45,356 nucleotides of DNA, from contig JAFQVS010000050.1 in the NCBI GenBank assembly GCA_017407905.1, forward strand, positions 1-45,356, written 5' to 3'. Position 1 is the stretch's first letter. The number at the start of each line of letters is the position of its first letter. The position numbers were made by a program, and so were the translations under genes. The notes below the pieces were generated by a model that was not told the origin of the DNA, ran no database searches, and worked only from the letters and a program-made list of their open reading frames with translations. This stretch comes from Bacteroidaceae bacterium. Its GTDB lineage: Bacteria; Bacteroidota; Bacteroidia; Bacteroidales; Bacteroidaceae. Positions 12,062 to 29,884 of this stretch are shown piece by piece.

Positions 12062-12541
12062 TCACTTTTTCACCTCTCCGATAAGCGAGAATGTCGCATC
12101 TTGTACATATTTGTACAACGTGGAATCCTCTTGTGTTGTTTTATCAAAAACTGCTATTCCTAATGATAAACTGTGCGAGGCGTTGGCTGCTCCCACAATA
12201 AGCATCATTGATATTGCGCAGCTGAAGAGTGCACCCAATATCTTGTCGATGAATCCGATATTTATTGCGTTGAGCAGCATTTGCAGCAGCCACCCCAATA
12301 TTTTCACGGCGAGTAACACCACGGCTATTATACTCACAAATGCAAGAATGCTACATATTATCTCGTCCCAGCCGGTGAGCGATGCGATGCGCACGCTGGC
12401 GGCCTTGTAGAACAGTACCGATTGAAATAGTCCGAGCACAATTCCTGCTACAAATGTAAGTTGGCTGATGAGCCCTTTGAAATATCCTATGGCAAAGCCC
12501 ACTATCATTGCTACTATCAATATAATATCCAGATTGTTCAT
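12062..12541 (-). CDS. CvpA family membrane protein
   Basis: A 159-residue inner-membrane protein with four hydrophobic segments (about residues 5-22, 28-46, 63-88 and 105-124) and the CvpA-type start MNNLDIILIVAMIVGFAIGY with a G-Y-x-K-G-L-I turn. In Escherichia coli CvpA is linked to colicin V production and envelope stress resistance; its molecular role is not settled. A gene of this family between infB and sufB is a pattern I associate with Bacteroidales. It starts 114 bases after infB and its stop is three bases ahead of sufB, so it is probably co-transcribed with the suf genes. Confidence 0.85.
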   Translation of the reverse strand: MNNLDIILIVAMIVGFAIGYFKGLISQLTFVAGIVLGLFQSVLFYKAASVRIASLTGWDEIICSILAFVSIIAVVLLAVKILGWLLQMLLNAINIGFIDKILGALFSCAISMMLIVGAANASHSLSLGIAVFDKTTQEDSTLYKYVQDATFSLIGEVKK

Positions 12542-17498: not shown

Positions 17499-17897
17499 AT
17501 GCGTAACACAAGGGGCAGGGATGCCAATATGAGGTTTTTGTTCGGCAGTGTGCTGTTCTTCTTTATGATTATAATGTCGGTGATGCTTTTTGTCTATTTT
17601 GTCCTTGAACAAAGCGTTACGAAAGAGGATAGGGTGCGCGACTGCTACGAGATTTCTTTCTCGAAACAATTCGACGGGCTCGAATATGACTTTTATCTGA
17701 ACGATAGTCTGCTCTATGTGGGCAGGCCCGTGTCGTCGGATACGGTCATTAGAATAGAGCGCAGCTTGGACGAAAATTCTTTGCTTGTGGTTGACAAGGC
17801 TACGGATATTGTCTCGGTTGTCGAGATTGGCCGACGCGGACGTCTGCTCATTGGCTTCGGGCGCGGTGGCGAGATTACGGCCGACCTCGTCGAGTGA
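17499..17897 (+). CDS. Small single-pass membrane protein of unknown function
   Basis: A 132-residue protein, divergent from the rimP operon. A hydrophobic segment (about residues 12-34, FLFGSVLFFFMIIMSVMLFV) should anchor it in the inner membrane, with the remaining about 95 residues outside. This part looks like a small beta-rich domain (YDFYLNDSLLYVGRPVSSDT, then SLLVVDKATDIVSVVEIG). I do not recognise the family. An in-frame ATG at 17529 would start directly at the hydrophobic segment and is possible. The next gene begins 75 bases on without an evident promoter, so the two may share a transcript with the CHAT peptidase gene. Confidence 0.65.
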   Translation: MRNTRGRDANMRFLFGSVLFFFMIIMSVMLFVYFVLEQSVTKEDRVRDCYEISFSKQFDGLEYDFYLNDSLLYVGRPVSSDTVIRIERSLDENSLLVVDKATDIVSVVEIGRRGRLLIGFGRGGEITADLVE

Positions 17898-17972
17898 TTT
17901 TTAAGGCGTCGGCCTTGTGGGCGGTGGCGCCGCTGTTGCGAATAATAAAAGGAAAATAAAATTATCAATATT

Positions 17973-18623
17973 ATGAAACGAGTAATAATTTCGACCTTTC
18001 TCTTTTTTGTTTTTTTGACGGGGTGGGCACAATCCTTTCCCGTCGGCGAGTTAAATGACAATATGCAGCGCTTTTACAAAGGCTGTATGACTTTGCGCGA
18101 GGGCATTGCAAGCAAAGATGTTATCACATTGGATAAGGCAATAGAACTATTGGACGACGATGCGCAAAATCCCGATAGAATAGAATTGTATAGCCTGAGC
18201 CTCGGTTGCGCCGACACCATTAACCAATGCTCGATGCAGGGGCATATGTACTATGATGCCGATTATGCCGAGTTTTTTAAAGAGAATATGGGGCTGGGAG
18301 TGTATAGCGAGGCTGCCGAGAGCCTGAGAGGAAAGCCGAGCAACTGTCAAATTGCGCACCGGGCAATAAAGGCCAACAGTAAGGTGCAATATACGGTTAG
18401 GATGGCCGGCTCGTGCCAGATGTTTGTCCTTGCCGAGATTGGGGGTAGTATAAAAGCAAAGGTCCATTTCGACAATGACAAGGAGTTTGTCGGCGTATCA
18501 TACGATAATGGAGCATTATCGTATTTAAAATGGGAAATGAACGCGTTCCCGCCCAAAGAGGTAACAATAACCATCGAGAATGTCTGCGACAAAGAAATCA
18601 GCTACGTAATTGTATCAAACTAA
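17973..18623 (+). CDS. Secreted protein of unknown function, upstream of a CHAT peptidase
   Basis: A 216-residue exported protein. The signal peptide MKRVIISTFLFFVFLTGWAQ ends at about residue 20. The N-terminal half (about 25-115) looks helical (FYKGCMTLREGIASKDVITL, then KAIELLDDD), reminiscent of a TPR-like helical bundle. The C-terminal half (about 130-216) looks like a beta-sandwich, with VQYTVRMAGSCQMFVLAEIG and a last strand KEISYVIVSN, comparable in pattern to PPC-type domains; this is inference. The gene lies 60 bases ahead of the first exported TPR-CHAT peptidase and in the same direction, so it may be its partner, regulator or substrate. Confidence 0.7.
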   Translation: MKRVIISTFLFFVFLTGWAQSFPVGELNDNMQRFYKGCMTLREGIASKDVITLDKAIELLDDDAQNPDRIELYSLSLGCADTINQCSMQGHMYYDADYAEFFKENMGLGVYSEAAESLRGKPSNCQIAHRAIKANSKVQYTVRMAGSCQMFVLAEIGGSIKAKVHFDNDKEFVGVSYDNGALSYLKWEMNAFPPKEVTITIENVCDKEISYVIVSN

Positions 18624-18683
18624 GAGGCGCCGCCCTCTCTTTTAAGCCCCTTTTTTGTGAAATTTTACAGATTCCGAGATATT

Positions 18684-21017
18684 ATGAATGGGAAGATTGC
18701 AATATTTCTGCTCCTCTTTTTTGTGTGTGGAAATATTCAGGCGCAGCAACAGGACAGCCTGATAAATATAAAATATAAAGCGGCGCGAGAAGCTCTTGCA
18801 AGCGAGCGGTACGACGATGCAAAATCGTTGTATATTGCCTTGCTCGATTGTAATCTGCCCCGAACCACACGGGCGAACATCCTCAACGAGGTTGGTGTGT
18901 GCTACAAGAATCTGGGCGAATATACACGGGCCGAAAAGAGCTTGGAAGAGGCGCTCGGGCTCACCCGCACAAGAAACAAGGATGCCGTGAGACTGAACTT
19001 GAGCAATCTGTATCTAATATCGGGCAGTTACGAAAAGGCCATTAAATGCCTAAATGAAATAACAGCCGAAAAACACAAATACGATAAACTCATAAACTTG
19101 TCGCACGCCTATTTCAGACGCGGCGATGAGGGCGACACCGGCACTGCGCTCTCATACATTGAAGAGTGCGTTGCAGCTGCCGACAGTGCGGCAAACAAAG
19201 AGAGCTATTATATAGCCCTTCAGAACAGGGGTTACATATATTGGAGCTTGGACAGCTTCCATAAAGCCGATAAAGACTTAGAAACGGCGTTGCGACACAC
19301 TCCATCGGACAAAAATATCTATTATACGACAAAAGCCAATCTTGCAATGGTCAAGGCGGCCATTGCCGATTATACCTCGGCGTTGGAATATATCGAGAGT
19401 GTGTTGTCGTGGCAAAAAAGCAATCTTAAAGAGACGCACCCCGACTACATAATTTCTTTGCGAAAAAGAGCCGAGATACTACTGCTGATGAAGGAAAAAG
19501 AGCGTGCGTGCGAGGCTTTTCGGCAGTATTACAATGCAAAAAAGAATTTTGTGGTGCGCGAATTTCCCACCCTTACCGAGCAGCGTCGTTTAGACTTCTG
19601 GGCAAGCAAAAAACCGCTTATCTCTCAGATTTTTCAGTTGAGAGAGACTGATACCGAACTGTTGTACGAGGTTGCACTCCTGCGACGACACATTGCACTC
19701 ATTGGTAAGAACAATATAGAAAATCTCTCGCAGGAGCTATCGAATACGCCGGCCAAACTGAGAAAGTCCCTAAACTCAGAAACAGCCGCCATTGAATTTA
19801 TCTGCTACTACGACAATGAGCAGAAAGACACAGTCTATGCAGCGCTTTTAATGACAAAAAAGAGGCCCGTAAAATATATTCATCTGTTCGGCGGAAAGGA
19901 GTTTCACGGATACAAATTAAACCGGTTCCTCGATTTAAAATCGACCGTCTGTTCGGCCAAAGAGAAGAACAAAAATATCATATACCGGGATACGACGCTT
20001 GCAAAAAAAATATGGGAGCCGATACTCGACGAGATGCCCGAGTCGGTCAGCCGCATATATTTTGCGCCCGACGGCCTGCTGCAAATGCTGGCAATAGAGT
20101 ATATGCCGCACCCCGAATTAGAGAGTTACACCATACAGAGGCTGACGTCAACCTCGAATCTGTGCAAGGTGAAGCATAAAAACAGGGGCAAAAAGAGTAG
20201 GGACTATTTAGTGATAGGCGGTGTCAACTACAACAAATACTCGGCCGAGAATGACACGACGGGCGAGACTAATCACGCTGCCTACGATTATCTGATTGAG
20301 CAGTATGGCAGCGTCTCGTTCACACAGCTTAAAGGTACCGAATTAGAGGCCGACTCCATAAGACAAATTGTGGCAACTGAGGCAGGTGATAGTGCAATAT
20401 ATACCTCCGAGGCCTACCTCAAGCAGAATATGGGGAATTACTCCGTGGTGCACCTTGCAACGCACGGATACAGCGCGGCGGTGAATGTGGGTAGGACGCC
20501 CTTTGTTATGCGCGACAGCCTTGTTGCCGATTATTCTTTGTTGGCGTCGGGAGTAGTGCTTGCCGGAGCGAATATCGCGGGTGATAACACTAATGTCGAG
20601 GATGGACTATTGTCCTCGCGCGAGATTTGTGAGTTGAACCTCTCGAACGTAGAATTGGTTATTCTCTCGGCCTGTCAGACGGCGCAGGGGGTGGTCTCGG
20701 ACGAGGGGCCGGCAGGTGTTGTCCGGGGTCTCAAGAAAGCCGGGGCAAAGACAATAATTGCAACGCTGTGGCCTGTGAACGATAATGCCACAATGATATT
20801 TATGAATGCCTTTTATAATGCGTGGTTCTTGTCGGGATGCAGTAAACAAGAGGCGATAAAGATTGCTCAGAGGACGGTTAAGGAATATTCAAAGCCTTCT
20901 CAACCGCGACGCGCAAGGGCAATTCTCTCGCACAAGAATGAAACAAACGAGACTGTGGTAAAGCCATACGCACAGCCTCGTTATTGGGCACCGTTTATCT
21001 TGATAGATGATATTTGA
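18684..21017 (+). CDS. Exported TPR-CHAT domain caspase-like peptidase (copy 1)
   Basis: A 777-residue protein: signal peptide (MNGKIAIFLLLFFVCGNIQA, about 1-20), a TPR-type helical repeat region (about 30-270, for example LNEVGVCYKNLGEYTRAEKS), a linker, then a C-terminal CHAT domain. CHAT is a clan CD cysteine peptidase fold related to caspases and separase. The catalytic histidine is H594 in VVHLATHGY and the catalytic cysteine C664 in VILSACQTAQG; the ending YWAPFILIDD is typical. The signal peptide places it in the periplasm or beyond, unlike the cytosolic TPR-CHAT protein of type III-E CRISPR. A GTG 27 bases upstream could be used but would put nine extra residues before the signal peptide. 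It converges on the second CHAT gene, 31 bases away. Confidence 0.88.
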   Translation: MNGKIAIFLLLFFVCGNIQAQQQDSLINIKYKAAREALASERYDDAKSLYIALLDCNLPRTTRANILNEVGVCYKNLGEYTRAEKSLEEALGLTRTRNKDAVRLNLSNLYLISGSYEKAIKCLNEITAEKHKYDKLINLSHAYFRRGDEGDTGTALSYIEECVAAADSAANKESYYIALQNRGYIYWSLDSFHKADKDLETALRHTPSDKNIYYTTKANLAMVKAAIADYTSALEYIESVLSWQKSNLKETHPDYIISLRKRAEILLLMKEKERACEAFRQYYNAKKNFVVREFPTLTEQRRLDFWASKKPLISQIFQLRETDTELLYEVALLRRHIALIGKNNIENLSQELSNTPAKLRKSLNSETAAIEFICYYDNEQKDTVYAALLMTKKRPVKYIHLFGGKEFHGYKLNRFLDLKSTVCSAKEKNKNIIYRDTTLAKKIWEPILDEMPESVSRIYFAPDGLLQMLAIEYMPHPELESYTIQRLTSTSNLCKVKHKNRGKKSRDYLVIGGVNYNKYSAENDTTGETNHAAYDYLIEQYGSVSFTQLKGTELEADSIRQIVATEAGDSAIYTSEAYLKQNMGNYSVVHLATHGYSAAVNVGRTPFVMRDSLVADYSLLASGVVLAGANIAGDNTNVEDGLLSSREICELNLSNVELVILSACQTAQGVVSDEGPAGVVRGLKKAGAKTIIATLWPVNDNATMIFMNAFYNAWFLSGCSKQEAIKIAQRTVKEYSKPSQPRRARAILSHKNETNETVVKPYAQPRYWAPFILIDDI

Positions 21018-21048
21018 TAAAATTTATAGACACTCTCGCGGGTGGCTC

Positions 21049-23307
21049 TTATTCGAGTCCGTCAAGCAATATGAATGCCGCCCAATATTCGGGCGAGCTC
21101 CACTCTTTGTGTCTGCGCACCGTCTCTTTTGCAATCTTCAGCGCCTGATGCTTGCTTTTGCCCATCATCCAATGCTTGTAAAATTCGGTCATTAGAACCT
21201 GTGTGGCGGCATCGTCAACCTTCCACAAGGACATTAGAATACCTCCGGCGCAGGCCATCTTAAAGCCACGCTGAAGCCCGAATACACCGTCCGAGGTGAT
21301 GTCGCCGCGTCCCGTCTCGCAGGCGCTCAGCACAATAAGGTCGGCTCCTTGTAAGTCGAGGGTCGATATTTCGTGGGCAGTCAATATGCCGTCCTCTACG
21401 CCCTCGGGCATTGGCACTCCATTGTATTTGTTATCGGCACCGGCAAAGAAGAGTCCGCTGCGCAGCAGGGGATTATCCTCGTTGCTGTCGGTGCTGCTTT
21501 TTTGGTTGTGATAGAAGCCGTGTGTGGCAATATGGATAATCTTTTTTTGTTTTCCACTGAGATTCTTAAAGGAGGTTTCCGTGCCTTTGTTTGCCTGAAA
21601 AACCTCGGCTGTGATATTTGTGCTTTTGGCACCGTTGATAATTGCTGTGATGCTGTCGGCCTCTATTTTTGTTCCTTTCAGATAGGGTATTTGAACAACC
21701 GCTGCACGCTCGGCGCGGGTGTTGTCGTCCCCGACAAATACAATATCGCGCTTGCTGACGTCGGGATATTTTTTCATATCGGCTATCATATCATTTGTGC
21801 TCATATCATAGCTGAGGCCGCCATAAACGACGGCATTTTGACCCTTTACCAAATTATCTTTTATGATTATTTCGCGTGTCGAGGACAAGCGGTAAATGTC
21901 GAATAGGTCGGCAAGGGTGTGATACGAGGAGTAGTCGCCGCTCTGCGCTGTCGGCTTTATGAACGGCAGATACTCTATGCCGTTGACCAGCAGGGCACCC
22001 TCGGCCGAGAAGTAGATGCGTCCCGCCTCTTTTGTAGGAAAATGTCTTACAATTTCATCGGGCCATATTGCTTTGCCGAGCTTCCATATTTCGTTCAGGG
22101 AGTTTGCGCCGAGGAAGGGGTTGCCTTTGAGATACTCTTCGAGGCTTTTGTTTAGTTGGGTGCTGCTCTGTTGCTTTTTTGTCAGGAATTTGGGCAGCAG
22201 GTCGCTGAATGAGAATTTTGCTTCTTCTAATGATAAATAACTATCTAATCTCACCAATTTGGGCGCCGACCACTCGTGCTTCAGCAGTATGGCACCATAC
22301 TCCCCGGTGGTTGTTCTGTAAAATTCTATTGCAAGGTCGTCGTCGGAGAGGTTGTTGCGAACATCCTCCCAAGTAATTGCGAGCTGAGGGATTGTGTAAC
22401 TCTGTCCTTTCTCGTGGAGTGCGTCAAGAATTACGTAATCTAACGAGTCGAGTACATTTTGTGTGGCACCCAACAGTGTTAGTCTCTTTTTTAATTTCAG
22501 ATTCTCTATTGCGCGTTCGTTGCGGCTCTCGTTTATGTAATTCTCGAAGCTGACGGCGGTGTTCAGCAGCAACCCTTTTGAGAGTAGCAGGGCATTGTAG
22601 GCTGCCGATGCTATCGAGGGTACCTTGCCGCCTGATTCGTGGGCAAGGTCGATGGTCTTGTTTATATATTTTGCGGCTTTATTCCAATAGATGCTGCGCT
22701 CTGATTCGCTGCGTGAGCAGAATTCTTTTTTTATCAATTCGACGTATGCCTCGTAGCCCATATTGTGATATTTGCTCGACTTTTTGTATTTCAGACGTTC
22801 GGCATATAGTCGGGATAATTCGAGCAAGGAGGTTAAATAGACCTCGCTGTTTGTCCCGAAATATTGCTTTTTTAGTTTGTGCGAGCGTTTGTAATATTGC
22901 AGGGCCATATAGTCGCGCTCGTTGTTGTATTCCAATTTAGATTTTGTGTCTAAAAAGAAAATCTCGTCTATGGTGTCTTTACCGTCGAAGATGCCGTCGG
23001 CGTGTTTTTTGAAGAGGCTTTCGCTTTTCGCCAGCAGTTGCTTTGCTTGTTGGTTGTCGCCTGCCTCGACGCACATCGAGGCGCACCACATTACGCATTG
23101 GGCATACTCTTTGCTGCTTGTCGAGTATCTGTTCTCGTATAATTGCAGCATCTCATTAAATTCGGAGTTATAGTATGCTCTTCCTTGTCGTATGTACTCC
23201 TGAATTGTCCTCTTTAGTGATTCGGCTCGCAGCGAGTCGTTTGTGGCAGCCTCGGCTCGCAGGGAGACAAATAGAAGGAATATAAATATTAGTTTGTAGT
23301 ATCTCAT
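21049..23307 (-). CDS. Exported TPR-CHAT domain caspase-like peptidase (copy 2)
   Basis: A 752-residue paralogue of the converging neighbour, with the same layout: signal peptide (MRYYKLIFIFLLFVSLRAEA), TPR-like helical region (about 30-280), linker and C-terminal CHAT domain. The catalytic histidine is H596 in IIHIATHGF and the cysteine C663 in LIVLSACETGRGD, nearly the same positions as in copy 1. It ends EYWAAFILLDG. Outside the CHAT core the two differ widely, so the duplication is not recent. It is the last gene of an eight-gene - strand run of exported proteins, nine bases after the one before, which suggests it acts on or with those envelope proteins. The substrate is unknown. Confidence 0.88.
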   Translation of the reverse strand: MRYYKLIFIFLLFVSLRAEAATNDSLRAESLKRTIQEYIRQGRAYYNSEFNEMLQLYENRYSTSSKEYAQCVMWCASMCVEAGDNQQAKQLLAKSESLFKKHADGIFDGKDTIDEIFFLDTKSKLEYNNERDYMALQYYKRSHKLKKQYFGTNSEVYLTSLLELSRLYAERLKYKKSSKYHNMGYEAYVELIKKEFCSRSESERSIYWNKAAKYINKTIDLAHESGGKVPSIASAAYNALLLSKGLLLNTAVSFENYINESRNERAIENLKLKKRLTLLGATQNVLDSLDYVILDALHEKGQSYTIPQLAITWEDVRNNLSDDDLAIEFYRTTTGEYGAILLKHEWSAPKLVRLDSYLSLEEAKFSFSDLLPKFLTKKQQSSTQLNKSLEEYLKGNPFLGANSLNEIWKLGKAIWPDEIVRHFPTKEAGRIYFSAEGALLVNGIEYLPFIKPTAQSGDYSSYHTLADLFDIYRLSSTREIIIKDNLVKGQNAVVYGGLSYDMSTNDMIADMKKYPDVSKRDIVFVGDDNTRAERAAVVQIPYLKGTKIEADSITAIINGAKSTNITAEVFQANKGTETSFKNLSGKQKKIIHIATHGFYHNQKSSTDSNEDNPLLRSGLFFAGADNKYNGVPMPEGVEDGILTAHEISTLDLQGADLIVLSACETGRGDITSDGVFGLQRGFKMACAGGILMSLWKVDDAATQVLMTEFYKHWMMGKSKHQALKIAKETVRRHKEWSSPEYWAAFILLDGLE

Positions 23308-23316
23308 ATTTTTAGC

Positions 23317-23844
23317 TTAAAAAGTTTTCTTTATACCAATTCCTACGCTGTGTGCATAATCGTTCTTGTTCCTAAAATGTGATACTCCCACCGAGAAACT
23401 TTTGTCTATTGGAAGAATATATGCCGTCGATACATCTATTGCATTTGCTTTCTTCTCTAATTTCTCGCTCCACGCATTGAAAGGAAGTGTTATAGCAAAA
23501 AAGGCTATCGAACTGCAAGGGATTGTAATCCAATCCGACCAATTCTTCTCTACTCCAATAACTGAAACTCCAACCATTACTCCTATACTGCACAAGAATC
23601 CGAGTGTTGTAACATCTTTGCTCATACGTTGCAGTTTACGTTTTTTGTTCAGTAGTTTGTAATCGTAACTCCTATCCATTGAGTTTGTCTCAAGATAGGC
23701 GCTTAGGGGCAGTATGGGGAGCTCCCGAGGGCCGATGGCCTCGGCGCTGTTGTGTATAGTGTCGTTCTCTTCTAAGGTCTGCGATGAGGCTGTTGAGCAC
23801 AACAGGCTTAAAAGCATTAAAATGAAAAATCTATTGAGTTTCAT
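23317..23844 (-). CDS. Small exported or membrane protein, unknown function
   Basis: 175 residues. A signal peptide (MKLNRFFILMLLSLLCSTAS, about 1-20) is followed by a polar stretch, a basic segment (LNKKRKLQRM), two hydrophobic segments (about 80-100, LGFLCSIGVMVGVSV, and about 105-122, WITIPCSSIAFFAITLPF) and a C-terminal part with alternating residues ending in IGIKKTF. The final phenylalanine and the two-strand pattern suggest a barrel-like end, but the hydrophobic pair suggests an inner-membrane hairpin; I cannot decide. It is nine bases from the CHAT peptidase gene downstream, so it is probably coupled to it. Confidence 0.65.
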   Translation of the reverse strand: MKLNRFFILMLLSLLCSTASSQTLEENDTIHNSAEAIGPRELPILPLSAYLETNSMDRSYDYKLLNKKRKLQRMSKDVTTLGFLCSIGVMVGVSVIGVEKNWSDWITIPCSSIAFFAITLPFNAWSEKLEKKANAIDVSTAYILPIDKSFSVGVSHFRNKNDYAHSVGIGIKKTF

Positions 23845-23874
23845 CTTTTTTCGTTTTTTTAGATGTATATTATT

Positions 23875-24606
23875 CTATCTTCTTTTTGTCGTAAAGAGAA
23901 GGAAAGAGGCTCTTGCTTCCCAATAATTCCCATCTACGTGGGTTTTTCCTAAATTATAATATGCAATGGCATTTGGGTCTATTTGTGGTGTTACATATGA
24001 GCCTATGCGTAATTCTAAAGAGAGGAAAGAGAGTCTTGTGCAGAGACCAAAGTACCAACAGAGGCTCATTGGGTTGAAGCACTCTTTGTTTAGGCCTGCG
24101 TACTCGCCTAAAAACTTATCCTTAGAGTGTGATGCAAGGAATATATCCGATTTTATTCCTGCACAAAAAAATAATACAGACAGATTAAGGTCGGACGCGA
24201 GCCAATGTGTGTGTATGCCCGTGTTTCCGAAAAAGCCATTGTCGTGGGCGTATCTCTCGTATTTATATCCCACGCTTGCTCTAATTCTGGGCTTCCAAGA
24301 AAACGGCGTGAAGAGAGATTCTCTTTCTGTAAAATAGAGCTCTCCGGTCATTCCTATATCAAAGAATCTACCGTAGATGTCGCCCGATTCAGTATATATA
24401 TTTTGTGTCGATGTCCACAGATTGGGGTGTTTCGCTGTTCCTGTTGCTGCGTATGTATATACATCGAAAAAACAGGGGTTGTTTTGGGAGTGGTCAATCT
24501 CGTTGACAATAACTCGGTTGCTGTTGTCGTCTCTCTGAGCGTTTGCTGTCTCTAAAGCAGCTGCTGCGAGTAGTAGCATAAGGCTCCATCGTTTAATAGG
24601 TATCAT
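23875..24606 (-). CDS. Exported outer-membrane beta-barrel-like protein
   Basis: 243 residues with a signal peptide (MIPIKRWSLMLLLAAAALET, cleaved near ANA-Q, about 23). The mature part is rich in alternating aromatic and polar residues typical of outer-membrane strands (GYKYERYAHDNGFFG, LSLELRIGSYVTP, YWEARASFLLFTT). It ends KRR rather than in an aromatic residue, which is unusual for a barrel that uses the standard insertion signal. Its start overlaps the upstream lipoprotein gene by 14 bases, so translation is probably coupled. The family is not recognised. Confidence 0.65.
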   Translation of the reverse strand: MIPIKRWSLMLLLAAAALETANAQRDDNSNRVIVNEIDHSQNNPCFFDVYTYAATGTAKHPNLWTSTQNIYTESGDIYGRFFDIGMTGELYFTERESLFTPFSWKPRIRASVGYKYERYAHDNGFFGNTGIHTHWLASDLNLSVLFFCAGIKSDIFLASHSKDKFLGEYAGLNKECFNPMSLCWYFGLCTRLSFLSLELRIGSYVTPQIDPNAIAYYNLGKTHVDGNYWEARASFLLFTTKRR

Positions 24607-25297
24607 AATAGATGTATTTTACGGCTCGTACATAATGTGAATTTTTTTTCAGCCAGCGGTCTTTTACGCCTGAGGTCGTTTTTTTGGGTGTTAATATTAC
24701 GGCTCTGTTCTCGGCGTCGTAATCGCTCTCTTGCCCTTTTATTGTTATGTAGTCGGTGTAGTCTTCGCTGCACGTCCAATAAAAGTTATTTTCGTTTAGT
24801 GGTGTCCCGCCAATGTCGGTAAGCGCCTTATTCAGCTTTTTGTGTTCGGAGTATTGGGTTATGTTATAAAATTCGTTATAGGATGGCAGGTGCCAGCTTC
24901 CACCGTAGGGCGAGGTGGCTGCGGAGTCTTTCTTATAGCACCAACACATTGCCGGGTATTTCGCAATTCCTTTTTCTTTCATTATGTGGAGCATTGCTAT
25001 GCTGAATTGCTCATCTCTATAGACTGAGCTGGGGTATTTTACCGAGTCGTTTATGATGTATAGCTGCTCGTTCAATGGCCCCCACGGGAGATATGTTTCG
25101 TCGGCCGAGATAACTAAAATATAGCGACCTTTTGATATGTATGCAACAATGCCTTCGTTGCCATACTTATCGACATAATAGTCGTAGAGCTCGTACTCTT
25201 CGGTTGTCTCGTCGATAATAAGTGCGTCCGATTCGTGCCGGCAGCCTATGCAGCAGATTAACGCCGATAGAAAAAATATAAATTTTATCTTCCTCAT
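24593..25297 (-). CDS. Lipoprotein with a DUF1566/Lcl_C-like domain
   Basis: From the chosen start the protein has 234 residues and begins with a lipoprotein signal, MRKIKFIFFLSALICCIGC, lipidated cysteine 19. An ATG 42 bases upstream would place polar residues ahead of the signal and is less likely. The C-terminal half shows GGSWHLPSYNEFYNI and NNFYWTCSEDY, the W-x-L-P-[ST]-x-x-E plus Y-W-[ST]-x-S/C-x-E pattern of DUF1566/Lcl_C or the Fibrobacter 'major paralogous' fold found in many surface proteins of Bacteroidota. After the lipidated cysteine comes RHESD, without an acidic run, so it may stay in the periplasm. Confidence 0.65.
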   Translation of the reverse strand: MRKIKFIFFLSALICCIGCRHESDALIIDETTEEYELYDYYVDKYGNEGIVAYISKGRYILVISADETYLPWGPLNEQLYIINDSVKYPSSVYRDEQFSIAMLHIMKEKGIAKYPAMCWCYKKDSAATSPYGGSWHLPSYNEFYNITQYSEHKKLNKALTDIGGTPLNENNFYWTCSEDYTDYITIKGQESDYDAENRAVILTPKKTTSGVKDRWLKKNSHYVRAVKYIYYDTY

Positions 25298-25319
25298 TGT
25301 TGCTTCTGTTTTTTGTCGG

Positions 25320-26180
25320 TTAGTAATGTATGTATTCAACTAATTTTAGAGCCGAGCAGTCGATTTTTAAGAGAAAAGGACGGTGCTCAAAATTATATAC
25401 ATTATATGTTATTGTGTCGTCTTTTAGATTTATATATCGTCGTATTTGTATCTTTAATGTGTCGTCGGGCAGGCTTAGTGTCAGGGGAAGTACGATGTTC
25501 TTTTCCTCGTTAATAAAATATTCGTAAGAATTATAGCTTCTGTTTATCCCTTTAAAGTCTTTTATATAGTAAGATTCGTAGTAGTAAGTCCATCCACTCA
25601 ATTTATTTACTCTGCCGAAATTCGTAAATACGCAGTACCCATTATGTGAAATTTGCTTTAACTCAACGGGGTAAATTTGGTTGGCGGGTGATGTTTCTAC
25701 TGTTGCCGAGTATAGTACATTCAGTTGGGGCGTGTCGCTTCTGTTGAGTGAAAATATATAAAAGTCGTCTATGCTTTTTGTTTTAAGCTGAAACCACGTC
25801 TCGTAATAATTGACGAATTGGTCGTATTTTACTACGTCGGCCGTAAAGAGGAATTTATATTTCTCGTCCTTATATAAATGCTTTATGGCGATTTTTGTGT
25901 CTTCAATTTGGGGCGACAGCTTTGTTTGCGAGTCTATCAGATTGCCTTCGCTGTCGTAGCAGTAGCAAACTACACGATAAAGGTAATCCGTGTCGAGATT
26001 GAATTTATTTTGCAACTGGAACTCGCCATTTGTGTATGATAGTACACTCGTCGCGAGGTGTACGGAGTCGAATGTGAATGTTATGTATCGCTGCGACGTG
26101 TCGTCCCATTCGTCAAAATTGTCGTTACAGCCGACAGATAGCAGGGCTGTGATTATAAATAATAGATTCAACTTTTTCAT
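25320..26180 (-). CDS. Lipoprotein of unknown function, possibly surface-exposed
   Basis: 286 residues. Lipoprotein signal MKKLNLLFIITALLSVGC, cysteine 18. The residues after it (NDNFDEWDD) are acidic, like lipoprotein export signals described for Bacteroides and Flavobacterium, which hints at the cell surface. The rest is beta-rich with many tyrosines (GWTYYYESYYIKDF, KIQIRRYINLKDD). No known domain recognised. Its ATG overlaps the stop of the barrel-like gene upstream (ATGA), and the next lipoprotein starts 22 bases after its stop. The sequence is clearly A+T-rich compared with the housekeeping operon. Confidence 0.65.
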   Translation of the reverse strand: MKKLNLLFIITALLSVGCNDNFDEWDDTSQRYITFTFDSVHLATSVLSYTNGEFQLQNKFNLDTDYLYRVVCYCYDSEGNLIDSQTKLSPQIEDTKIAIKHLYKDEKYKFLFTADVVKYDQFVNYYETWFQLKTKSIDDFYIFSLNRSDTPQLNVLYSATVETSPANQIYPVELKQISHNGYCVFTNFGRVNKLSGWTYYYESYYIKDFKGINRSYNSYEYFINEEKNIVLPLTLSLPDDTLKIQIRRYINLKDDTITYNVYNFEHRPFLLKIDCSALKLVEYIHY

Positions 26181-26830
26181 ATTTCAAATGGAATATAATA
26201 TGTTAGTCCGATGCCTATTCTCGCTCTCTCGAAAATGGAATCATATAATTTGTCGTAATTGTAGTATTTCGATTCGTAGATATATTTCTGATTCAGTGCT
26301 GGCGATAGGTCGTATTCGTACGATAGTGCCAACTCGTATCTTTTTATTTTGAGACCTATTTTTGCCTTTGCCGAGAAAAAATGCTTGCTGACATTGTAGT
26401 TGTCCTCTTGTTCCACTTCGGTGCTTGGTGTGTAGTCGGAACTTAGGCCCCAATTGTGTGCAATCTCGCCCCCGACGAAAAGGCAGCGCTCTTTGCCACG
26501 CAATAAATTTATGTCAAGCGACGCGTACATTGCAAGATGGCTGTACGATATACGGTCGTTGTTGCCAAAGTAAAAAGGGTTGCCCAATTTGTATTGCAGG
26601 CCAATGTTGGCATTGAGGATGTTTCGCGACGAGCCTATTCCGATGCCTATTTTGGGCGAGAGTGCCCAATTGTGATGCACCGCGGCGTCTATTCCAATTG
26701 CGGCGCGATAAAAGTCTATCTTGCTGAAGCGTTCGTTTCTTAGAATTATCTGCTCCTTCTTGCTTTGAGAATAGCCCGGGATGAGCGTCAGTAAATATAA
26801 TATGATGAGTGTTATTCTCGACTTTTTCAT
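26177..26830 (-). CDS. Exported outer-membrane beta-barrel-like protein
   Basis: 217 residues. Signal peptide MKKSRITLIILYLLTLIPGY, cut near SQS (about 22). The mature part shows repeated short amphipathic strands separated by turns: YRAAIGIDAAVHHNW, SPKIGIGIGSS, LNANIGLQYKLG, KIGLKIKRYELALSYEYDL and ARIGIGLTYYIPFEI at the end. The layout suits an eight-stranded outer-membrane barrel of the OmpA or OmpW size, though the last residue is not aromatic. It follows the FN3-like lipoprotein gene by six bases and overlaps the next gene by four. Confidence 0.68.
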   Translation of the reverse strand: MKKSRITLIILYLLTLIPGYSQSKKEQIILRNERFSKIDFYRAAIGIDAAVHHNWALSPKIGIGIGSSRNILNANIGLQYKLGNPFYFGNNDRISYSHLAMYASLDINLLRGKERCLFVGGEIAHNWGLSSDYTPSTEVEQEDNYNVSKHFFSAKAKIGLKIKRYELALSYEYDLSPALNQKYIYESKYYNYDKLYDSIFERARIGIGLTYYIPFEI

Positions 26831-26836
26831 AATTCG

Positions 26837-28150
26837 CTACATTTTAATCATTGCAAATGGAAATTCTATATACGACCTGCCTAATATTGTACGTGAGCCG
26901 TCGTTTGAATGAAGCACGTATGTTATGCCTCCTATTGATTGTTCAACACCAAAAGCAGGATAGGTAATTTTTATTGTTGTATAAAATCCGTATGCGTCTG
27001 CTTCTTCGATGAATTTTCCTTTTGCTAAATTTAAATCGGATGATTTTGACGTTAAATCTAATTCATCCTTTATATTCATATACCAGCCTTGCATATATAA
27101 ATCGCCGACAACAGTAGTGCCGTCAATTATAAATTCGGCATTTTCTTTGACCAATTGCGTTGGGATGGTGATATTGCGGCTGTTCTGATTATAGTTGACG
27201 ACAATGGGGAAGGGGTGGTTGCCCCAACCATACATTAAGAGTGATTGATTTACTTTCAGTTTCTCGAATCTAATGTTGTTATATGTAACATCCTCATTGT
27301 TGGTAATTTTCCACTCATTTGATAGTAGATTGTCGAACCCTTTGGTCGCTTTATACTCCTTAACAGAGAAGGGTTCGCTCTTTACATATAGGCCGCTTGG
27401 CGAGCCGTCGGGATTAACGCCAATGGCGTATGCGATATAGTCGTTCGGGTCTAAATAGTGATAGTAGTAGATTGATTCTATGGCCAAAAAATCTTCTAAC
27501 AACCAAAAATCTTGTTCGTTTTCGTCATCGCCAATATGCTCTTTTTTAAACTCTTCTATTGCGTAGCCGATAAAGTCCTCTTCGTTTGTGAATGTGTTAT
27601 AAGTATCAATATCGCACTCAAAAACAAAATAGTGGTCGGTGGAAATTTTATTGACATTTACTTTGAATTTTGAATAGTAGCCGTTGTTGTATAATGCGTC
27701 GCCGAGGTATTTTATTGCCCAATTTTCGTTTATTACGGCACTCCATTGGCGCTCTGTGGTCTTAAATTCCACCGCATCGGGTACGCCGTATAGCTCGCCA
27801 TCCTCGTTTATGCCGAATACAATATATGTAAACTCAGAGGTGGGCTTTAGGCCCGAGAGGGAGACTACTTTTTTGCGCTGGTTCTTTAGGGAAGATAATA
27901 TCTTGCTCTTGTCTGCCTTTGATAGGTATTTGTTTATTTCGCCTTGAATGTCATCCTTGCTGCCACTTACCCAAAAGCCGTAGTAACAGTTTCTGTTGGT
28001 GCCATTGTGGGTGATGGTTACGGTGGCCGAGTAGTCTTTGGCCTCGGTGAGTGATACTTTGAATATTACCTCGTTGCTCTCTTGCTCGTCCTCGGTGCAG
28101 GCGGATAATATAAATAGTGTTAAAAATATGAGAATGTTAGTCTTTTTCAT
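26837..28150 (-). CDS. Surface lipoprotein with FN3-like domain
   Basis: 437 residues. Lipoprotein signal MKKTNILIFLTLFILSAC, cysteine 18, followed by TEDEQES, an acidic stretch that fits surface export. Residues about 28-130 look like a fibronectin-III-like domain common in Bacteroidota lipoproteins (DYSATVTITHNGTNRNCYYG, then GLKPTSEFTYIVFGINEDGE). A second similar half has DYIAYAIGVNPDGSPSG (about 233-249). The C-terminal 170 residues are beta-rich and unassigned. Such proteins often bind glycans or other surface molecules, but nothing here fixes a ligand. It is the second gene of the operon, 37 bases after the first. Confidence 0.68.
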   Translation of the reverse strand: MKKTNILIFLTLFILSACTEDEQESNEVIFKVSLTEAKDYSATVTITHNGTNRNCYYGFWVSGSKDDIQGEINKYLSKADKSKILSSLKNQRKKVVSLSGLKPTSEFTYIVFGINEDGELYGVPDAVEFKTTERQWSAVINENWAIKYLGDALYNNGYYSKFKVNVNKISTDHYFVFECDIDTYNTFTNEEDFIGYAIEEFKKEHIGDDENEQDFWLLEDFLAIESIYYYHYLDPNDYIAYAIGVNPDGSPSGLYVKSEPFSVKEYKATKGFDNLLSNEWKITNNEDVTYNNIRFEKLKVNQSLLMYGWGNHPFPIVVNYNQNSRNITIPTQLVKENAEFIIDGTTVVGDLYMQGWYMNIKDELDLTSKSSDLNLAKGKFIEEADAYGFYTTIKITYPAFGVEQSIGGITYVLHSNDGSRTILGRSYIEFPFAMIKM

Positions 28151-28187
28151 ATTCTGTCTGTTGCTCTGAAAAAACTGCTTAAATGTG

Positions 28188-29375
28188 CTATCTTCGGCCG
28201 CCCGCCGCTTGTGGGGTGCCTGTCGGTGCGCTACCTGCTGTCGGTGAATCGGTTTTTAGTCCCAATTCTTCCAATAGGTCGTTGCTTATTATGCTTGCGG
28301 GTGCTCTAAGGGTGGTTATGACCCAGCTTTGTGCTTTCTCGTCCCAATGCTGTGTCGAGATTGTTTGCCACGTTGATGCGATGAACGTGGTGTCGGGCTC
28401 CATCTTTTTTCGGCGCTTGTAGTCGCTTTTCCAATTTTCGCGGTAGTCGTCGGTTATTTCGCAGGTCTCTTTTAGGGTGATGGCCAATTTGTACTCGCCT
28501 GTGCCCCAGCAATCTTTGTATTCATCGGATTCGTCGCGGTAGCCCATATAGGAGCGGGGGACGATAAAACTCTCGCCTGATATTCCGATGGCAGGTGCTT
28601 TTTCTCCATCGCGTATGTAGCGGAAAAATCCTCGTTCGTCGAGACTTTCGGGCTTTATGGGGATTGTAATGCAAAATTCGCCCAATAGCTGGTCTTTTTG
28701 CAGTAGCACAATTTCGTTCATCCACGATGATATTAGTTTAATGTTCATCGTGAGTATGAAATTCTTGCGCTCCTCGAACGAGAATGGTATATCGTATGGC
28801 GAATTTGGTAAATGCGAGTGGGCGGGGCTTAAAATAAACGTGTCTAATACCAACTCGAATTTCGAGTGGTTTACGATGCGATGCAGCTTGGAGCGATCGA
28901 CGTGGCACGAGATATAAAAGACAGTGTCTTTTCCCTCCTTGCGCAGGCAGCCGATGCCGTCGAAGCGCATTCCTTTGGGGTCCATAGCGCCGTCGAACGA
29001 TATTTCTTTGTAGAAGTCGTTTACATCGGATACTGTGCTTATTTTAGTCTCGAAGATGTTCTCTTTTTTTACGCTCTCTTCCCACTCCTTTTTTTGTCGG
29101 GATTTTTTTGTTACCAAAGAGCCCACCGCGTTAACTCCTAAGTCGATGAAAGAGGTTACGTATCCCGATGCGATGCCTTTTCCCGCGCCGATGCCTGCAT
29201 CCATCAAATTACCCATATATCCGCGGGAAATTGCATCGGTCGATTCTGAATATCTTTGGCTAATCTCCTCGCTCAACTCTTCGCTTGTGTATATAAATGT
29301 CTGATATTTAATATTTTGTGCTGTCAGTGTGTGCGATAGCAGCAGGCATAATGCAAAAAGGATGTTTTTTTTCAT
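28188..29375 (-). CDS. Exported protein with glycine-rich hydrophobic segment, first gene of the CHAT operon
   Basis: 395 residues. Signal peptide MKKNILFALCLLLSHTLTA (about 1-19, then QNI). After a polar helix comes a glycine-rich, weakly hydrophobic stretch (about 52-88): GNLMDAGIGAGKGIASGY, then VTSFIDLGVNAVGSLV. Glycines at 3-4 residue spacing recall glycine zippers of membrane-inserting segments. The next about 250 residues are mixed alpha-beta, with cysteines in FDGIGCLR, YISCHVDRS, EFCITI and KDCWGTG. The tail is Gly/Pro/Ala-rich. No known domain recognised. It starts the eight-gene run ending in CHAT copy 2 and has a promoter-like box about 110 bases upstream. Confidence 0.66.
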   Translation of the reverse strand: MKKNILFALCLLLSHTLTAQNIKYQTFIYTSEELSEEISQRYSESTDAISRGYMGNLMDAGIGAGKGIASGYVTSFIDLGVNAVGSLVTKKSRQKKEWEESVKKENIFETKISTVSDVNDFYKEISFDGAMDPKGMRFDGIGCLRKEGKDTVFYISCHVDRSKLHRIVNHSKFELVLDTFILSPAHSHLPNSPYDIPFSFEERKNFILTMNIKLISSWMNEIVLLQKDQLLGEFCITIPIKPESLDERGFFRYIRDGEKAPAIGISGESFIVPRSYMGYRDESDEYKDCWGTGEYKLAITLKETCEITDDYRENWKSDYKRRKKMEPDTTFIASTWQTISTQHWDEKAQSWVITTLRAPASIISNDLLEELGLKTDSPTAGSAPTGTPQAAGGRR

Positions 29376-29485
29376 TGCGGTGTTTTATTTGTAGTGTTAT
29401 TTTTAATAAATTCTTTTCAAATAATGATTATGCGCGGCCTCTCTTCTTTTTATCGGCCTGCTGCGAGGCCGAGCGAAAAGAACTA

Positions 29486-29493
29486 CAAAAATA
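29486..29493 (-). promoter_or_regulatory. Candidate -7 box of the CHAT envelope operon
   Basis: TATTTTTG on the - strand matches TAnnTTTG; no convincing TTTG lies about 20 bases further upstream. The predicted leader of about 105 bases holds a hairpin, TCGGCCT/AGGCCGA (29453-29472). The rest of 29376-29697 has only a weak dyad TGCCAC/GTGGCA (29557-29578), and no gene. Confidence 0.4.
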
Positions 29494-29670
29494 TCAATGA
29501 GATAAATTTAAGCAGTTTCTAAAATAATGTCAAAATTACGGAAAAGTCGGCGAGGCTGCCACTTGTTAAACTGTGGCAATTTATGTAAAAAAAGATTAAC
29601 CCGCAAGAAAATTCAGAAAAAGTTTATGGCGGGGCAGGGGGGGTATGGAAGTTTTATGGAAGAAACAAAA

Positions 29671-29692
29671 AAGGCAACCTTAAAAGGTTGCC
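29671..29692 (-). terminator. Intrinsic terminator of the tRNA-Asn transcript
   Basis: GGCAACC (29673-29679) and GGTTGCC (29686-29692) make a 7-bp stem extended by A-T pairs; on the - strand a run of T follows. It lies directly after the second tRNA and would also work in the other direction, isolating the CHAT operon. Confidence 0.8.
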
Positions 29693-29697
29693 TTTTG

Positions 29698-29771
29698 CTC
29701 TTCAGGTAGGACTTGAACCTACGACCCCCTGATTAACAGTCAGGTGCTCTAACCGACTGAGCTACTGAAGA
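29698..29771 (-). tRNA. tRNA-Asn (anticodon GTT), copy 2
   Basis: 74 nt on the - strand. The acceptor arms TCTTCAG and CTGAAGA pair fully, the discriminator base is G, the anticodon loop CTGTTAA gives GTT, and the T-loop is GTTCAAGT. CCA is not encoded. Its sequence is identical to the other copy. Confidence 0.95.
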
Positions 29772-29810
29772 ATATGTGTCAAACTTTTTTGGATTGCTGC
29801 GGCCTTTTTG

Positions 29811-29884
29811 CTCTTCAGGTAGGACTTGAACCTACGACCCCCTGATTAACAGTCAGGTGCTCTAACCGACTGAGCTACTGAAGA
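29811..29884 (-). tRNA. tRNA-Asn (anticodon GTT), copy 1
   Basis: Identical 74-nt gene, 39 bases upstream of the other in the direction of transcription, so both probably come from one precursor. Cloverleaf arms and anticodon as in the second copy. Confidence 0.95.

Follow-up and report, generated by a model that had tools for sequence, protein, structure and literature searches.

Several described systems are comparable to the locus analyzed here, which encodes two proteins with TPR and CHAT domains in the window, i.e., the whole stretch of 45,356 nucleotides from a Bacteroidaceae bacterium (assembly GCA_017407905.1, contig JAFQVS010000050.1). Craspase, of CRISPR type III-E, is an RNA-activated, cytosolic system in which the TPR-CHAT protein Csx29 acts along with Cas7-11 and Csx30. 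Passages of PMC10028731 describe how Csx29 cuts Csx30, an inhibitor of a sigma factor, at a single site. The window proteins share with Csx29, which according to the same passages cuts a protein of its own locus, the TPR-CHAT architecture and the His/Cys dyad; unlike Craspase, they carry export signals, and the genomic island that encodes them contains no Craspase genes (a Pfam scan of 12 window genes detected neither Cas7-11/gRAMP nor Csx30; CRISPR arrays were not searched for). Five genes adjacent to one of the two CHAT genes form with it a cassette that is present twice in this genome and is the principal subject of this work.

DegS, a serine protease unlike the cysteine proteases of the CHAT family, provides another parallel. 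In DegS-RseA envelope stress proteolysis, a periplasmic protease answers an envelope signal (a type of system named in parts of PMC10028731), which is the same logic as that proposed below for the cassette; unlike DegS-RseA, the cassette includes no anti-sigma factor. Conflict systems formed by TIR, trypsin, caspase and FGE-type domains are covered in sections of PMC7159879 and PMC10907252. The likeness to the EAD/VMAP/STAND conflict systems consists in the combination of a protease effector with putative lectin-like sensor domains, and in the TIR-FGE-sulfatase genes of related modules (see below); the differences are that no NTPase switch was matched in the island by Pfam, which may not model effector-associated domains, and that the effector has a signal peptide. 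In a portion of PMC11854122, CHAT proteins of Bacteroides fragilis encoded beside type VI secretion system effectors are guessed to be immunity proteins, and the accessible part of PMC8195603 contains nothing on exported CHAT proteins. Among the matches listed, the open-access literature includes no study of substrates of exported CHAT proteins and no report of an exported CHAT with an envelope operon.

A six-gene cassette in two copies

The gene array b217-lp286-lp234-b243-s175-CHAT- (Table 1) recurs in the same order and on the same strand in contig C5 (locus L043) of the same genome, an assembly of 102 contigs with an estimated completeness of 84% (hereafter G000). All twelve frames (six genes in each of the two copies) are open. 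The C5 paralog, with 67% identity over the full length, is the closest relative of CHAT- in this genome, and the partner proteins of the two copies are 37 to 48% identical (Table 1). The protease is the most constant part of the cassette, and the partners change fast. The fraction of identical codons at positions with identical residues is 0.438 for CHAT, 0.456 for s175, 0.541 for b243, 0.468 for lp234, 0.42 for lp286 and 0.49 for b217. These similarly worn synonymous sites in all six pairs indicate an ancient separation of the two copies, in which the six genes probably diverged jointly and escaped recent gene conversion; a recent duplication or conversion of the CHAT genes is accordingly rejected. 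The six genes are an old unit under lasting selection, which we consider the strongest evidence that they form a functional unit. Beside the C5 cassette, a further CHAT gene (L044, 3137-7686; 51-56 kb of C5) is split over two frames, either through decay or through an assembly error.

In the window, the cassette is part of an eight-gene operon, x395-lp437-b217-lp286-lp234-b243-s175-CHAT-, with intergenic distances of 37, 6, -4, 22, -14, 30 and 9 bases, and CHAT- converges with CHAT+ across a gap of 31 bases. The genes x395 and lp437 have no counterpart in the C5 copy, and no relative of lp437 was found in the CHAT-neighbourhood loci compared. A crude signal-peptide rule is positive for all eight operon products as well as for g2 and CHAT+, and three of the operon products (lp437, lp286 and lp234) contain a lipobox. 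The rule is negative for the proteins that we take to be IF-2, NusA, RimP and SufBCDS; it also calls membrane proteins, e.g., g1 and the product of 12062-12541, and it is positive for 158 of 457 other open reading frames of at least 150 amino acids in 60 loci from the order. Eight calls out of eight would be expected by chance with a probability of about 2e-4 if the genes were independent, which genes of one operon are not. A search of PHROGs yielded no match for eight proteins.

The CHAT domain (PF12770) is detected in CHAT+ with E 1.7e-52 (179.1 bits) and in CHAT- with E 3.1e-46 (158.6 bits; the cut-off is 24), and TPR_12 is detected with E 3.5e-17 and, just below the cut-off, 2.5e-6, respectively. 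The His/Cys dyad is H596/C663 in CHAT- and H603/C673 in CHAT+ as counted from the GTG start, which corresponds to H594/C664 from the ATG nine codons further in. Judging from the domain and the intact dyad, both proteins belong to the CHAT peptidase family and are predicted to be proteolytic. The dyad is aligned in 94 of the 95 CHAT sequences of at least 250 amino acids from 88 loci, the exception being half of a gene whose frame is broken (the alignment takes in neither shorter fragments nor the loci L059, L060, L074-L076 and L078). PDB sequence searches with CHAT+, CHAT- and the CHAT pair gave no informative match and matched no solved CHAT structure; the matches of CHAT+ to designed proteins and to BBS4 run through the TPR part and are uninformative. 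The same searches with lp437 and with profiles of lp286, lp234 and g2 were likewise uninformative, and matches of g2 to ubiquitin-containing chains (E 7e-4) were disregarded.

Thus, the coordinates, the Pfam matches and the dyad alignment agree with the sequence-only reading of this DNA in that two exported TPR-CHAT proteins with intact dyads converge on a 31-base gap, that every product of a tight eight-gene operon on the minus strand (gaps from -14 to 37 bases) has an export signal, and that three of these products are lipoproteins. Its claim of an operon dedicated to the CHAT protein is supported for the five of the seven partners that are kept in the C5 order and not for lp437 and x395, which lie outside the unit.

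Table 1. Features of the window locus, with positions in the window
Feature	Coordinates	Strand	Description
g1	17499..17897	+	resident gene, outside the system; adjoins rimP in G013, G016 and nine other genus-mates (30-73% identity)
g2	17973..18623	+	exported 216-amino acid partner of CHAT+
CHAT+	18657..21017	+	predicted exported TPR-CHAT peptidase; GTG start, ATG at 18684 also possible
CHAT-	21049..23307	-	predicted exported TPR-CHAT peptidase; closes the six-gene cassette
s175	23317..23844	-	small exported protein, two hydrophobic segments beyond the signal peptide; favoured candidate substrate; C5 paralog 40%
b243	23875..24606	-	exported, possible outer-membrane barrel; C5 paralog 37%
lp234	24593..25297	-	lipoprotein; C-terminal part weakly Lcl_C (DUF1566)-like; C5 paralog 48%
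lp286	25320..26180	-	lipoprotein, acidic residues behind the lipid cysteine; cassette marker; C5 paralog 39%
b217	26177..26830	-	exported, probable outer-membrane barrel; opens the cassette; C5 paralog 47%
lp437	26837..28150	-	lipoprotein; operon member without counterpart in the C5 cassette
x395	28188..29375	-	exported; relatives adjoin other exported CHAT genes
two tRNA-Asn genes	29697..29884	-	island edge (ARAGORN)
inserted island	17900..29690		between g1 and the tRNA-Asn pair; limits approximate

Genomic location and distribution

The block of CHAT genes in the window is flanked by rimP-nusA-infB on one side and by a gene for an S41 peptidase on the other. In all seven genus-mates with both rimP and the S41 gene on the fetched stretch (L200-L204, L207, L208), only g1 separates these two genes, which shows g1 to be a resident gene; it was therefore rejected as a member of the system. 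In these seven genomes, S41 starts within about 300 bases of g1 and lies in the opposite orientation compared with the window; tRNA-Asn is located on the far side of S41 in six of them, and beside S41 also in G013 and G016. In G013, which is among the closest relatives in rimP (86%) and S41 (84%), the S41 gene and two tRNA-Asn genes are oriented as in the window, and the interval from g1 to the tRNAs is occupied by four genes unrelated to the island: one for an extracytoplasmic function (ECF) sigma factor, the two that follow it, and one in the opposite orientation. By coordinates, rimP and S41 lie no more than 2.8 kb apart in 25 genus-mates; this distance grows to 4.7 kb in G013 and to 12.8 kb in the window (the remaining genus-mates lack one of the genes or carry them on separate contigs). 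The arrangement in the relatives thus indicates that the block from g2 to x395 is an insertion beside the tRNA-Asn pair. The GC content of the ten island genes is 0.38-0.47, compared with 0.49-0.55 in nine flanking genes. The island ends share only one 11-base direct match, with no att site or repeat, and no integrase is found among the Pfam matches of the window island (the scan did not cover the surroundings of the C5 copy). One contig of G013 (C59; L196, L197) contains the S41-rimP block twice in opposite orientation with equal identities, which represents either an inverted duplication or an assembly artefact.

The C5 copy is located behind genes read as pyrE and purB, followed by c167 and tRNA-Leu. 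The genes pyrE, purB and c167 occur together in six of the seven relatives fetched, tRNA-Leu is close behind c167 in four of the seven, and no CHAT was found in these seven stretches (one of them only 4.5 kb long). The cassette is probably transferable and appears to have moved between genomes as a unit.

CHAT domains are present in 213 of 393 genomes of the order (G000 included) and in 12 of 44 genomes of the genus, with one match in each of the 11 CHAT-bearing genus-mates as opposed to 12 in G000 (fragments included). These 12 matches, on contigs C1, C5, C11, C47, C54 and C90, represent a lineage-specific expansion. Two of the contigs end in CHAT fragments (C1, 9194-9376; C90, 3318-3500) that have equal scores and lengths and cover the same part of the profile, a pattern suggestive of an assembly break at a repeated CHAT gene. 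In G062, a CHAT remnant of 105 amino acids (L189, 7914-8231) apparently occupies the same place as the full CHAT operon of G014 (L068), which points to a likely loss.

None of the five cassette partners was found near CHAT in the 11 genus-mates (the stretches from G012 and G016 are cut by contig ends), and three of these genomes have x395. The sequence-only reading had proposed to look for joint occurrence of CHAT and partner genes across genomes: the close C5 paralog keeps the partners, and the CHAT genes of the 11 genus-mates are without them. Loci of the kind that this reading named as contradicting it thus exist for CHAT genes in general but not for the close paralog. The marker gene lp286 is absent from the 43 other genomes of the genus, from phage records and viral contigs, and from the 392 other genomes of the order except for one weak N-terminal match in G358 (E 7e-4, residues 1-98), which was discounted given its location among other exported proteins with no CHAT. 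Two weak profile matches of s175 in the 392 genomes (G406, G432) were discounted as well, there being no CHAT within about 1.5 kb on each side. A plasmid collection searched with CHAT- yielded 173 records, with query coverage below 80% in each.

For the contexts of CHAT genes across the order, 60 of the 212 other CHAT-bearing genomes were sampled with one neighbourhood apiece, chosen from the best-scoring matches, with genomes skipped or matches swapped near contig ends, so that high-scoring CHATs are over-represented. The CHAT proteins are called exported in 52 of 62 cases in this sample, in 7 of 7 complete cases in the genus loci and in 7 of 8 complete cases in G000 (two truncated genus CHATs and four of G000 were set aside; the eighth of G000 is a fragment). 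Several of the 10 order proteins that fail the rule look exported by eye. Location outside the cytoplasm, which the sequence-only reading had singled out as the unusual trait, is thus usual in the order and was rejected as the distinguishing feature of this locus; the partner set is what sets it apart. The number of exported operon neighbours per CHAT is zero in 34 cases, one in 19, two in 6, three in 2 and four in 1, compared with five in each cassette copy (five on one side is the maximum of this count).

Modules of other exported CHAT proteins

In four loci (L051, L067, L184, L185), a relative of g2 is flanked immediately by a TIR-type gene on one side and by an exported CHAT gene on the other. 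The TIR-type proteins of L067 and L184 match TIR_2 and FGE-sulfatase (TIR_2 marginally below the cut-off in L184), and those of L051 and L185 were read from the start of the sequence only. In the window, g2-CHAT+ is found without a TIR gene. From this arrangement, CHAT+ seems to belong to a g2-CHAT module of its own, and the earlier assignment of both CHAT proteins to one system is not supported. Matches of the g2 profile in G286 and G433 were discounted, with no CHAT in the fetched flanks. The g2 profile also matches parts of longer proteins (L186, 6081-8234; L187, 3-1118; L188, 4034-5230; E-values from 8e-7 to 8e-6 against a small set); the L188 protein is the kinase-like gene product of a CHAT-x395 operon, and this match may point to a shared domain. 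The g2 counts do not extend to the whole genus, nor the x395 counts to the order sample.

In all three genus-mates that have x395 (G005, G014, G063), this gene is directly downstream of an exported CHAT gene. The genes ahead of the CHAT-x395 pair have a trypsin-like match in L069 and weak matches to FHA and kinase families in L188, and a truncated x395 relative is found at the edge of L051. In a quick tree that left out G063, the CHAT proteins of G005 and G014 group as sisters with CHAT+ rather than with CHAT- (SH-aLRT 93%). It follows that x395 may belong to an older g2/CHAT+/x395 block within which the cassette is nested; tentatively, the cassette would have been inserted between CHAT+ and x395, a scenario that depends on a single fork and is not firm.

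Other exported CHAT genes are associated with different sets of genes. In G021, G025 and G029, homologous genes for sigma-like, anti-sigma-like and exported caspase proteins precede the exported CHAT gene (the sigma-like match has E 7e-8, below the cut-off, in G021; the anti-sigma-like match, E 0.007; caspase C14, E 4e-17 in G025). A row of genes for an exported caspase (C14 in L064), a sigma-like protein, a weakly anti-sigma-like protein and an exported TPR-CHAT protein in L064, L065 and L066 may constitute an envelope stress regulon under caspase control. In 5 of the 60 order loci (L139, L155, L158, L115, L124), the CHAT operon encodes a Reg_prop propeller protein, with a SpoIIE end in three cases, and L115 contains a further SpoIIE protein gene on the other strand. 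A family represented by L163, 4814-6058, is encoded directly upstream of CHAT in 8 of the 60 order loci; seven of the eight proteins are called exported, and a type IX sorting domain forms the end of the one that was scanned.

The CHAT gene closes an operon in two genomes of different families, G424 and G337. Upstream of it are genes for a Reg_prop lipoprotein and for two other exported products with a barrel-like appearance, with only one match among these candidates, sub-threshold, to Phenol_MetA_deg (E 3.5e-4). Like the cassette, these operons combine a sensor-type lipoprotein, two other exported proteins and a TPR-CHAT protein; unlike in the cassette, the partners are non-homologous, the sensor is a beta-propeller, s175 is missing and the barrel nature is weakly supported.

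A possible sensor-protease system and its alternatives

The duplicated gene set is suggestive of a system dedicated to surface sensing, with a protein cut as the response. We tentatively propose, with a probability of about 0.42, that the six genes encode a single trans-envelope sensor-protease system, kept and probably moved as a unit. A ligand or contact outside the cell would be sensed by one or two outer-membrane barrels together with the lipoproteins lp286, whose signal resembles one for surface export, and lp234, which has a weakly matched lectin-like domain; the periplasmic TPR-CHAT protein would dock to these sensor proteins through its TPR part; the complex of barrels and lipoproteins would relay the surface signal to the TPR part; and the caspase-like domain, once stimulated, would make a limited cut in an envelope partner, most likely s175. 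The two copies and their gene order, the export signals, the intact dyad, the long-lasting selection on all six genes, the contrast between fast-changing partners and a steadier protease, and the insertion of the window island beside tRNA genes are shown by the analysis; we infer the surface sensing, the docking through TPR, the proteolytic activity, the role of s175 as the substrate and the horizontal movement.

The choice of s175 as the favoured substrate follows from its location directly upstream of CHAT in both copies and from its two membrane segments. The hydrophobic segments (77-101 and 106-124) are in the same place in the C5 copy and are the least conserved part of the protein; a basic motif NKKRxL immediately before the first segment is kept in both copies. 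The lipobox of lp286 is followed by C-[NK][DE]NFDEW in both copies (C-NDNFDE in the window) and that of lp437 by C-TEDEQ, so that both roughly fit the LES signal of surface lipoproteins, in which a polar residue and then acidic ones come right behind the lipid cysteine, and its consensus SDDFE, which was derived from F. johnsoniae (according to parts of PMC5080379). DUF1566 (Lcl_C) lies in the surface glycosaminoglycan-binding domain of Legionella Lcl (in the accessible text of PMC11162425), and DUF1566 and FGE-sulfatase are frequent in variable proteins of diversity-generating retroelements (from sections of PMC4159848). With regard to the two barrel-like proteins of the sequence-only reading, the C5 copy of b217 has sub-threshold matches to barrel families (OMP_b-brl, E 0.0045; DUF5777, 0.007; also DUF2490).

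A number of observations weigh against the proposed system. The cassette is known from two copies only, which share a single genome whose estimated completeness is 84%, and s175 has no relative beside other CHAT genes. In the order sample, 34 of 62 CHAT proteins are without an exported operon neighbour, which implies that CHAT in general needs no such partners, and the CHAT protein of the comparable G337 operon is not called exported by the rule (its start reads like a lipoprotein signal). Among the putative sensors, the lp234 signal, C-RHESDA, does not fit the surface consensus, and its Lcl_C match (E 6.6e-5) is below the curated cut-off (0.0096 in the C5 copy); for b243, there is no family match or barrel evidence. 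Structure models of lp286 (from a 2-row alignment) and x395 (3-row), with a mean predicted local distance difference test (pLDDT) score of 43.4 and 33.5, respectively, were not used.

The evidence that the partners belong together can also be read in another way, namely, that CHAT is a dedicated maturation protease that trims or assembles the cassette lipoproteins and barrels into a surface structure, such as an adhesin or uptake complex, with no stimulus-dependent signalling. All the genes form one operon, all the products are exported, and they stay together in both copies; moreover, surface structures of Bacteroidales use dedicated proteases. However, several relatives of the TPR-CHAT proteins adjoin signalling genes (ECF sigma, weak anti-sigma, Reg_prop-SpoIIE, FHA-trypsin or kinase-like, TIR) rather than structural ones, and no pilin or TonB-receptor match was found among the window genes scanned, which renders this explanation unlikely.

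An envelope defence or cell death function, in which phage attachment or cell contact is sensed and CHAT activates s175 as a membrane pore, appears similarly improbable. The tRNA-adjacent island, the patchy distribution and the fast-diverging partners are in favour of such a role, as is the presence, next to related exported CHATs, of TIR-FGE-sulfatase and FHA-trypsin genes, domain types of conflict systems; in addition, s175 has weak, non-significant matches to SLATT_1 (E 0.053) and mob_CxxC_CxxC (E 0.015). The case against it is that 10 proteins gave no PADLOC match other than the weak one of CHAT+ to BovA (E 2.4e-5 over about 50 residues) and that neither a gasdermin nor an NTPase was matched among the window genes scanned (for gasdermin, neither Pfam nor PADLOC had a match in the ten island genes, and these libraries may not model all bacterial gasdermins). 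Considerably more speculative, and quite doubtful, is an envelope-spanning, caspase-like death or defence circuit, spread on tRNA-linked islands, in which lectin-like lipoproteins and barrels would detect an attacker and CHAT would cut s175 at NKKRxL to open a gasdermin-like pore in the inner membrane. It is also highly unlikely that the periplasmic CHAT acts as a site-1 protease on an anti-sigma factor or sensor encoded elsewhere: such regulator release has a precedent in Csx29-Csx30-sigma and parallels in G021, G025 and G029, where the exported CHAT gene is directly behind the sigma-like/anti-sigma-like pair, but no sigma or anti-sigma factor is found in the window island (by Pfam) or was read in the C5 cassette, and in those three genomes the sigma match is below the cut-off (G021), the anti-sigma match is weak and the G025 homologue has no Pfam sigma match.

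Thus, the earlier reading was good in outline, drew the unit too wide and misjudged which feature is unusual, and its interpretation of the locus is partly supported. Exported TPR-CHAT proteins are common in the order, and the intact two-copy cassette with its small set of partners makes docking, cutting and sensing testable. If the proposed sensor-protease system is real, signalling in the bacterial periplasm would be a further role of caspase-like proteolysis.

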